Source: Candidatus Acutalibacter stercorigallinarum
GTDB taxonomy: Bacteria > Bacillota > Clostridia > Oscillospirales > Acutalibacteraceae
Length of the DNA: 33,900 nucleotides
Assembly (NCBI GenBank): GCA_019112625.1
Contig: DXIW01000006.1
Coordinates: 1-33,900 of the forward strand
Reading direction: 5' to 3'
This document shows, one piece after another, positions 12,506-14,321 of this stretch. The notes under the pieces are model-generated. The model was not told where the DNA came from, did no database searches, and saw only the letters and a list, made by a program, of their open reading frames with translations. Position 1 is the first letter of the stretch. The number at the start of each line of letters is the position of its first letter. The translations under genes and the position numbers were made by a program.

Positions 12506-12516
12506 GGAATACGCGG

Positions 12517-12715
12517 GGACCCGCCTGGCCGTATCGCGCAACTCAATAACCTGCTACCAAAAAGCAGGTGGGTGCCCCCCCTCCTGCTTCACGCTCCCTT
12601 CCTCCAGCAACCGGACAAAGCCGTGCCGGGAGGTCTGCGATCCCCAGGCGGAGACAGGGCTCCCTTTTATTCGAGTGTAGGGTTATATGTGCGCAGTCCG
12701 CGAGCCAGGCAGGCT
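12517..12715 (-). ncRNA. ssrS: Probable 6S RNA
   Basis: About 195 nt on the minus strand between the DUF1292 gene and a terminator. It can fold as one long, interrupted hairpin with an open centre, the hallmark of 6S RNA. CCTGCCTGG (12713-12705) pairs with CCAGGCGGG (12528-12520), and further in TGCGCA pairs with TGCGCG. The apical part has CCTCC-CGGCA-CGG pairing with CCG-TGCTG-GAGG. The 3' side of the centre carries a small hairpin, GCAGG with CCTGC, within GGGCACCCACCTGC; I recall this arrangement and string from clostridial 6S RNAs. 6S RNA binds sigma-A RNA polymerase and lowers transcription in stationary phase. No clear own promoter is seen, so it may be processed from the upstream DUF1292 transcript. 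The exact ends are estimates. Confidence 0.7.
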
Positions 12716-12725
12716 GAAAACGAAG

Positions 12726-13025
12726 TTACTCTTCGGGCTCGTCGTAGTAGGCGTCGTTGAAGCGGCTCTCGAAGATCTCGGCCAGCTGGTCCAGCAGGGC
12801 GTCGTCCTCCACTTCCTGGAGCTGCTCCTCGCCGTCCTCCTCTACGACTTCGAAGATGTAGTAGGTCTCGGCCTCGGAGGAAATCTCCTCGGGCTCCTGC
12901 TGGGTGGGGACCAGGGCCATGTAGTGGCCGTCGTCGTTCTCCAGCTCGTCGATGATCTCGAACTCGTGCTCGTTGCCCTCGTCGTCGATGAGGGTGATGA
13001 GGTCGGCCTCATATTGATTATCCAT
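12726..13025 (-). CDS. DUF1292 family small acidic protein (YrzB-like)
   Basis: Protein of 99 residues, extremely acidic, with no membrane segment or Cys. The order of motifs ITLIDDEGNEHEFEIIDEL, YMALVP, and FEVVEEDGEE followed by a C-terminal helix with FESRFNDAYYDE matches DUF1292 proteins. These are widespread in Firmicutes, often near ruvX, and have no established function. The family is easy to recognise; the role is unknown. AAGGAG lies 12 bases before the ATG at 13025. It has a clear promoter (13073-13101) and is followed on the same strand by the probable 6S RNA. Upstream it is divergent from the large RNA promoter at 13213. Confidence 0.88.
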   Translation of the reverse strand: MDNQYEADLITLIDDEGNEHEFEIIDELENDDGHYMALVPTQQEPEEISSEAETYYIFEVVEEDGEEQLQEVEDDALLDQLAEIFESRFNDAYYDEPEE

Positions 13026-13101: not shown

Positions 13102-13212
13102 GTGTGTGAGAAGGGGTGGGGGAAAATTTCCTGTTTTCACAGGAGGGGAGGGAGCGGTGAGATAGGGATGGAAAAACTAGATAAAAAATTTCAAAAAAAT
13201 GAAAAATAACTA

Positions 13213-13241
13213 TTGACAAGCGGGCGGGTATCCGCTATAAT
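13213..13241 (+). promoter_or_regulatory. Consensus sigma-A promoter of the large non-coding transcript
   Basis: Perfect TTGACA (13213-13218), 17-bp spacer, perfect TATAAT (13236-13241). The 40 bp upstream of the -35 box are A/T-rich with phased A runs (13179-13209), like an UP element of stable-RNA promoters. This is the best promoter match in the window and there is no coding sequence behind it. Confidence 0.93.
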
Positions 13242-13247
13242 ATAGCC

Positions 13248-14321
13248 AGAAGATAAGAGGTGAGAGAAAATCAGATCAAAATCTTCGAAGGCAGCTTCGC
13301 AAACCGGAAGTAGCCGAAACAGGAAACACCTCAATACCTGTTCTCCGACGAGAAAAGAGAAACAGGGCAACGGAGGACCTGCATGGTGTGAAAACGGTGA
13401 GGAGTGGAAAAGAGAGCTGTAAGTTTTCCCAGAGAAAAGTAGTCGCAAGAGCGATGAAGGCACTGGAGAGAACACAAGACAGCGGGAAAACAAAAAAGCG
13501 AAGCGCCAAACAAAAAATCTTGCAGAAAGGCGGGTGAGTCCATTGGACAGAAATGAACCTCAGCACTTAGCTATCTGCGGACTCACAATCCGCAGATAAA
13601 TAAAAGATCGAGAGATCGAAAATTTGGTCTTACCCTGTAAGGCCAAAATCATAAAAGAAAGGGGTCCCAATTCTGAAAGAACCTCAGAGCCAAGGGAACC
13701 ACAATCGGCACGAAGCTGTTTGATCGCCGCAAGTTTCAAAAGCTTTGTAAAGCTGCCCTGAAAAAAGGGAATCATACATAAGGCGGCTAAACAGAACAGC
13801 GACCGGTGCCAGAACAGGACAAATAAGCCAATGTACTAATCATTTGATAAAATGATGTTTTTCCCAAAAGCTGAGCATGAGGGAAAGCCGCCAGGACAGG
13901 GAGGGCAACGGGAACTTCTTCTCGGGACATCATTTTGAAGTGAGTTTCGAAAACCAGAACCTTGACAAGCGATCCCTGAGAATGGCGAAGCGTTTCCCAG
14001 CGAAACAGCAAAACGGGAACCATAGCCAGAAATGGCCGAAAGGCCAGGTCAAACGGCAGGCTTCTTTTTCAAAAGCTGTCCGGTATTTCCCAATGGAGTG
14101 TCTATCAGAAAGAAAGAACGGGCAGACTAAAAAGAAAGGTCAAATCAAAAACAATCCGTTTGACAGCTGACTTGAACGATGACGAGTAGTACGAATGTAA
14201 ACCCAGTTTCGTAACAACAAACGAGTGACAGACCGGAACCTTGCTTCATACCGTTCGAGTAAGCAAACATCAAAACAAAAAAGAGGGCTTCCAAGGCAGC
14301 TTGGAGGCCCTTTTCCTTTTT
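13248..14321 (+). ncRNA. Large structured non-coding RNA (about 1.07 kb), class not assigned
   Basis: A full transcription unit without a credible protein. It is A-rich and less GC-rich than all neighbours, and stop codons fall in all frames. Helices seen: 13286-13299 (CGAAG/CTTCG), 13406-13429, 13443-13454, 13572-13598 (TATCTGCGG/CCGCAGATA, 9 bp), 13606-13617 (GATC-GAGA-GATC), 13623-13647 (9 bp), 13756-13769, 13839-13856 (ATCATTT/AAATGAT), 14033-14046 (TGGCC-GAAA-GGCCA), 14054-14082, 14139-14164 (GTCAAA/TTTGAC), 14190-14213, and the terminator. Long-range helices: 13849-13865 with 13924-13936, and 14170-14178 with 14252-14260. The loop ACTCAC (13581-13586) matches GTGAGT (13534-13539), a probable pseudoknot. 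These are features of giant ornate RNAs such as OLE, GOLLD and ROOL. I see no RNase P, tmRNA, group I or group II intron core, and cannot place it in a known family. Ends are inferred from promoter and terminator. Confidence 0.8.
14285..14321 (+). terminator. Strong intrinsic terminator of the large RNA
   Basis: GGGCTTCCAAG (14285-14295), loop GCAG, CTTGGAGGCCC (14300-14310), 11 bp with one wobble, then TTTTCCTTTTT. Confidence 0.95.

Follow-up and report, generated by a model that had tools for sequence, protein, structure and literature searches.

Between the DUF1292 and HD genes of the window (the whole stretch of 33,900 nt analysed here) there is very probably an independently transcribed, folded RNA which falls in no Rfam family, carries several translation-initiation sites, with the start of its first short ORF (ORF1) able to pair within ORF1, and occurs in two or more families within a single clostridial order. 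We do not read it as purely non-coding, nor as one of the OLE, GOLLD, ROOL or tmRNA groups, but as a putative new RNA class with ribosome start-stop modules. Taken as a whole, such an RNA together with a ribosome-engaging mechanism is our best explanation, held with somewhat less than even confidence. The features are as follows.

12726-13025, reverse strand: divergent neighbour gene, DUF1292 (Pfam E 1.1e-16)
13173-13212, forward strand: A/T-rich, UP-element-like tract ahead of the promoter; a like tract is seen by eye in most aligned loci
13213-13241, forward strand: consensus promoter TTGACA-N17-TATAAT, 12/12 positions; 11-12/12 in 22/25 further genus loci anchored on DUF1292
13248-14317, forward strand: predicted RNA of ~1.07 kb, both ends placed from promoter and terminator; fold z -5.7
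13383-13391, forward strand: ATG-GTG-TGA after GGAGG, a putative start-stop site
13524-13541, forward strand: predicted ribosome-binding element AGAAAGGCGGGTGAGTCC, the best conserved block of the RNA
13543-13599, forward strand: ORF1, TTG start, 18 codons (MDRNEPQHLAICGLTIRR), TAA stop; apparent selection for length, peptide partly conserved
13572-13598, forward strand: predicted hairpin inside ORF1 (13572-13581 with 13589-13598), with covariation
13707-13810, forward strand: predicted domain just 5′ of the second start site, closed by two helices (13707-13711 with 13806-13810; 13716-13721 with 13794-13799)
13831-13839, forward strand: second conserved site, CCA-ATG-TAC-TAA (start-codon-stop), with a weak Shine-Dalgarno in the window
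14281-14314, forward strand: predicted intrinsic terminator, 15-bp stem; comparable hairpins with other stems in relatives

Promoter, terminator and fold of the RNA gene

The preliminary description had proposed a gene for a structured RNA, equipped with a promoter and a terminator of its own, and this is supported by an interval that lies outside all Rfam families and has covarying homologues. The promoter it had named as the best was indeed found at 13213-13241; within the 2.2 kb scanned it is the best of four promoter-like sites and the sole sigma-70-type site matching at 12/12 positions. The strong terminator was likewise located, with a stem of 15 bp here compared to the 11 bp given earlier, and the A-rich, low-GC interior was confirmed by a GC content of ~0.46 versus 0.55-0.66 in the flanks, with a strong A skew. 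Promoter, terminator, fold and absent Rfam match make the interval look like a genuine RNA gene, single-copy within its own genome, and from the promoter alone we infer that the RNA is abundant.

Without the terminator, the minimum free energy of the RNA was -300.2, whereas 40 dinucleotide-shuffled copies gave -254.5 ± 8.0 (z -5.7); seven relatives folded at z -8.9 to -1.3 against shuffles, two of the seven (L087 at z -1.3 and L067 at z -1.9) being only slightly more stable than these. Both GNRA hairpins of the preliminary description were present where they had been placed, but neither is widely conserved: in comparison with six aligned relatives, GATC-GAGA-GATC sits in an insertion unique to the window, and TGGCC-GAAA-GGCCA has a counterpart only in the sister locus L055, as TGGTT-loop-ACCA. 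The two helices closing the domain at 13707-13810 covary, with 17 two-sided cells among 13 genus sequences versus 5.4 in shuffles (0/500 reach the observed value); two of the five covariation measures for this domain were not clearly above shuffles (74/500 and 214/500 reach the observed value), and the outer helix of the window, read from the sequence, is offset by one column from the alignment.

The Rfam search suggested as a check gave no match at gathering score to any Rfam 15 family in the RNA interval (OLE, GOLLD, ROOL and HEARO included). A permissive scan returned nine sub-threshold hits only, the best two of them on the terminator, and there was also no Rfam match in 33 further loci (20 from the genus and 13 from genus or family).

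Homologues, genomic setting and distribution

Using blastn, 14 of 99 genomes matched, the genome of the window itself plus 13 more, which all belong to a single genus. Among 394 sampled genomes of the order there were three matches, of which the single one from outside the genus (G307) was set aside as a homologue, as its 26 bases cover part of the terminator only. A TTGACA-N17-TATA[AC]T promoter (11-12/12) diverges from DUF1292 in 22/25 other genus loci (Neglectibacter group), and L059, L073 and L079 have no such promoter among these 25 DUF1292-anchored loci. The predicted RNAs range from 427 to 1241 nt, that of locus L056 measuring ~0.88 kb, and end in strong hairpins with differing stem sequences; the entries for L073 and L084 in the list of lengths are not RNAs. 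In the window, a 6S RNA (RF00013, 59.2 bits) was detected at 12514-12718 on the reverse strand, directly downstream of the DUF1292 gene, such that 6S RNA, DUF1292 and the new RNA adjoin one another.

More distant relatives were searched with the core model R1, built from 25 sequences, and with R2, built from 40 sequences (six from family f26); as both models were built partly from sequences that are counted here, and relatedness was kept in the statistics, the counts are to be read with this in mind. R1 matched 22/29 genus genomes, 20 of which were in its training set. Among the seven without a match, the contig ends at this position in three (G025, G003 and G016), three have no promoter (G004, G009 and G017), and G007 (locus L065) has the promoter and short ORFs with an unrecognisable core. 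In other genera of the family, 9/12 loci chosen by their DUF1292 gene carry the core, five of the nine having been used in model training. In the search of the order, which was not anchored on DUF1292, all seven other-genus matches with a known DUF1292 position were within ~0.7 kb of DUF1292 (three of these seven were in the model). R1 matched 50 of the 394 order genomes, many of them weakly.

R2 matched 51/197 genomes of family f26, where matches below ~29 bits are individually uncertain because of the R2 scores outside the order: it peaked there once at 31 bits (G1069, with a 16-codon ORF and no promoter found) and otherwise at no more than 27. At the level of the class, R2 matched 30/391 genomes, mostly weakly. 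For closer inspection of f26 there were 22 loci hand-picked after the R2 searches, with L182 (among the 58 sequences described below, lacking a promoter) excluded. All 22 have a promoter of at least 10/12, located 39-370 nt ahead of the ORF (start site to ATG), and a terminator search over them found none in L173 and L192. The upstream divergent neighbour was tested in nine of the 22 and is DUF1292 in six (L118, L170, L172, L180, L184 and L192), with TauE, PfkB or RNase J as neighbours elsewhere. Putative weak matches were also obtained in families f10, f13, f14, f16, f17 and f20, and the f15 match L107 (30 bits) looks right and stands alone. Two sets of R1 matches were rejected: a second one from the genome of the window (C6, 24 bits), where no such element is present, and L106, L119 and L122 of family f13, which are starts of longer ORFs, encoding HD proteins in both cases tested (L106 and L119).

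ORF1 and the later start-stop sites

The preliminary description saw no convincing coding frame and a purely non-coding RNA. On the contrary, conservation is highest at an 18-codon ORF preceded by a ribosome-binding site (13543-13599, beginning with TTG), and by the sequence statistics translation starts with very short ORFs are under selection. The start in the window reads AGAAAGGCGGGUGAGUCC-A-UUG, and the corresponding block in close relatives is AGAAAGGCGGGTGAGTCC-N-ATG-GAC...GAACCTCAGCAC, with a ribosome-binding element that we take to resemble the complement of the 3′ tail of 16S rRNA. The start codon is TTG in the window, GTG in the sister L055 and ATG elsewhere in the set.

Counts were made on 58 picked sequences. 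Left out of these as near copies or the same locus were L068, L071, L081, L090, L109, L110, L185, L190 and L199, and as repeats of other loci, members of L095-L100 and L102. Further omissions were the truncated L070, L065 (no core by pattern), L059, L073, L079 and L083-L085 (no RNA), and, as doubtful or other genes, L112, L167, L176, L179, L183, L194-L197, L111, L114-L116 and L120-L124. In 57 of the 58, ORF1 is 16-25 codons long, a range for which shuffles predict 11.0 ± 3.0 sequences, and in the remaining one it is 30; the other two frames reach 18 and 9. Outside the genus the figure is 38/39 versus 7.3 from shuffles, and in 25/25 alignment rows the distance from the start to the Q codon varies only in steps of whole codons. 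Judged by these comparisons, ORF1 is under selection for length. No long frame proved to be conserved among the forward frames compared: in the matches listed, the ORF1 frame alone recurs across the RNA-bearing genera, adjoining protein genes apart. One relative, L087, has a protein-like open frame of 93 aa inside its predicted RNA (oriented 763-1044), lacking a counterpart in other RNAs among the matches listed.

The peptide itself is conserved in part, with E kept in 43/58 and Q in 38/58 sequences; its second half is not, and close relatives differ in its reading frame with respect to the hairpin. Within the genus, the first half of ORF1 changes at rates of 0.39, 0.38 and 0.55 at first, second and third codon positions, as expected for coding sequence, and outside the genus the positions differ little (0.55, 0.62 and 0.63). 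A start context like that of ORF1 also opens ordinary ORFs in the order, namely two for HD proteins (L106 and L119) and, in L111, a small one. The two HD-protein genes (family f13) further resemble ORF1 in their encoded N-termini, MDSEIQQ and MESEIHR, a likeness that may reflect either chance or the origin of ORF1. In L111 (family f17, ~1471-1600) AGAAAGGAGGTGAGTCCAATGG and a small ORF that opens with MESKIKKLIKLVQQLEELIKAIISI lie a short way downstream of a 12/12 promoter. The window contains the pattern GAG[TC]CCN-start at three places, ORF1 and two opposite-strand TTGs that look unrelated.

Covariation among homologues, which had been named as a check, is present in the ORF1 hairpin, in a helix formed between its loop and the spacer, and in the domain helices described above. 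The loop-spacer pairing is an alternative in which 13579-13586 would pair with the spacer of the ribosome-binding site (13534-13541), with 8 bp in the window. Among 25 sequences, 6/8 pairs of the ORF1 hairpin and 2/5 of the loop-spacer pairing have two-sided changes, together 31 two-sided cells versus 9.1 in shuffles (0/500 reach the observed value). The spacer-ORF1 helix switches from GUGAG/CUCAC to GCGAG/CUCGC among relatives. Individually, the spacer pairing reaches p ≤ 0.05 in 12/19 genus rows and in only 9/39 other rows; the 39 non-genus rows combine to p 2e-6, with relatedness left in. At the level of sequence, these changes establish a covarying fold overlying the first start.

Downstream of the domain, CCAATG closing within four codons (one to three codons, then a stop) was found at the second site in 15/25 genus rows; of the ten rows without it, two are the truncated L070 and the RNA-less L073. 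In f26, L103 has CCAATGTAC-TGA and L101 has the same CCAATGTAC start with seven codons, both after AGAAAGGGATTAA. We searched all 58 RNAs for RBS-ATG sites 3′ of ORF1, which for loci not anchored on DUF1292 meant 750 nt from the start codon, a distance that can enter the next gene. This gave 66 sites versus 18.9 ± 4.2 in shuffles, 28 of which close within five codons versus 5.4 ± 2.2. Strict GAGUCCN-start sites number 17, in 12/58 loci, and 13 of the 17 are exactly start-codon-stop, the other four having 3, 6, 9 and 12 codons; judged by these 13 and by the excess of short ORFs, the hallmarks of a two-codon minigene are present, namely a start behind a ribosome-binding site, a single further codon and a stop, preserved by selection. 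The second codons of the strict start-stop sites vary and all three stops are used, so that the conserved feature is a start with an immediate stop. Both the initiation sites and the lengths of the short ORFs are, from their departure from shuffles, evidently selected.

The number and place of the start-stop sites differ greatly between relatives. In L065, where the core is unrecognisable, the 742-nt RNA contains four RBS-CCAATG sites (one or two codons, then a stop) spaced 107-126 nt apart. L086, L087, L092 and L094 have six copies of AAAGGGTGAGTCCAA lacking a start codon, beside copies with one. The second-site pattern was detected in 29 viral contigs, about the number estimated for chance, and the exact core in none.

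Candidate functions and comparison with known systems

A possible role, to which we give distinctly less than even probability, is that of a ribosome decoy or counter, where both the engagement of ribosomes and its purpose are proposed. The RNA would be made from its strong promoter and engage ribosomes without producing protein: 30S subunits would bind the Shine-Dalgarno elements, initiate, and then terminate or drop off at once, and in ORF1 the translating ribosome would open the fold that otherwise covers the start. As a multivalent decoy or counter it would take up ribosomes according to the number that are free, in analogy to the action of 6S RNA on RNA polymerase. The fuller version, a strongly transcribed multivalent decoy or counter made of serial start-stop modules and acting as the ribosome counterpart of 6S RNA across an order of gut Clostridia, is more doubtful still. 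Points that speak against our explanation are, in the window, the TTG start of ORF1 and the weak Shine-Dalgarno of the second site, and among relatives the 9/39 non-genus rows alone reaching p ≤ 0.05 for the spacer pairing, the two domain measures close to shuffles, the element copies lacking a start codon, the ten genus rows with no CCAATG site closing within four codons, and the three genus loci lacking such a promoter.

For several start-stop sites in a self-contained RNA a decoy or counter in our view fits best, docking in cis comes close behind, and a peptide third. In the case of docking, the RNA would have another function, and parked ribosomes would only shield its long untranslated sequence from nucleases or Rho. 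The spread of start-stop sites along the RNA would suit this, as would published examples described in PMC8708949, where a two-codon ORF acts in cis, possibly through RNA protection, and the ribosome bound to a six-codon mini-ORF protects RNA from RNase E. Protection should, however, not require a start and immediate stop of such regularity, and the sites vary much in number and place between relatives; we consider docking unlikely, although a serious competitor of the decoy or counter.

Less probable again is that the RNA is the messenger of a small working peptide, ORF1, with the remainder regulating it. The fixed length of ORF1, its varying start codon with whole-codon indels, the partly conserved E and Q residues and the raised third-position change in its first half within the genus all argue for such a peptide. 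The unconserved second half, with its frame shifting against the hairpin, and the near-equal codon positions outside the genus argue against it, and the two-codon ORFs cannot encode such a peptide. There is little chance that the GAGUCC elements are only pairing motifs in a structured RNA and that its starts and stops are incidental, as the spacer-ORF1 pairing and the six element copies without a start codon might suggest, since ORF1 length and the start-codon-stop pattern are far above shuffles and the same context begins protein ORFs. A divergent tmRNA, which also contains an internal ORF, can be dismissed with near certainty, as ORF1 is opened by a start site of its own, no Rfam model including that of tmRNA matches the new RNA, and a separate standard tmRNA scores over the cut-off in 22/29 genus genomes (none in the 86%-complete assembly of the window).

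If ribosomes do engage the RNA, it would be a bacterial RNA for which initiation and termination are themselves the product, and it offers a testable entry into the handling of free ribosomes by gut Clostridia. Its varied modules are natural replicates for the study of very short ORFs and peptidyl-tRNA drop-off. It also calls for caution, as the best conserved spot of a long 'non-coding' interval proved to be a translation start.

We found no description of the new RNA in the open-licence literature, as judged by titles and the openings of abstracts, and we know of no RNA family with serial start-stop sites. Dual-function RNAs such as RNAIII and SgrS combine a structured RNA with a short ORF; in comparison, the new RNA has an ORF of selected length with a peptide conserved in part at most, and start-stop sites that occur repeatedly. 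With 6S RNA (RF00013) the proposed principle alone would be shared, that of an RNA occupying a core machine: there is no sequence relation, the target would be the ribosome, and the nearby 6S gene serves as analogy only.

OLE, GOLLD and ROOL, to which the preliminary description likened the RNA, are long structured bacterial RNAs of unclear function, and the genes for GOLLD and ROOL lie in phages and prophages, close to tRNA islands, according to the sections of PMC12286853 used here, whose descriptions of the three are without the serial translation starts of the new RNA. The new RNA shares length and structure with them and differs in matching no Rfam family and in its chromosomal setting beside DUF1292. 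A likeness beyond size was not supported, with predicted RNAs of 427-1241 nt. An origin from phage or plasmid was rejected on the lack of a blastn match in phage and plasmid collections; on the same lack, and with DUF1292 and HD genes as neighbours, the phage or prophage setting of GOLLD and ROOL was rejected as well.

The closest parallels are two-codon minigenes, which, as reported in PMC8708949, engage and hold ribosomes after a strong Shine-Dalgarno, deplete tRNA when overexpressed, can be toxic because peptidyl-tRNA is recycled slowly, and are also able to make RNA more stable. In the same source, mg2 of axe-txe, the LEE1 and LEE4 leaders and ycbK share with the new RNA a Shine-Dalgarno followed by an AUG and, after one or a few further codons, a stop, and it is translation or ribosome binding that matters in them. 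As described there, such minigenes and mini-ORFs sit in leaders or in the mRNA of protein genes, whereas the new RNA has several of them, its own predicted terminator and no long ORF.
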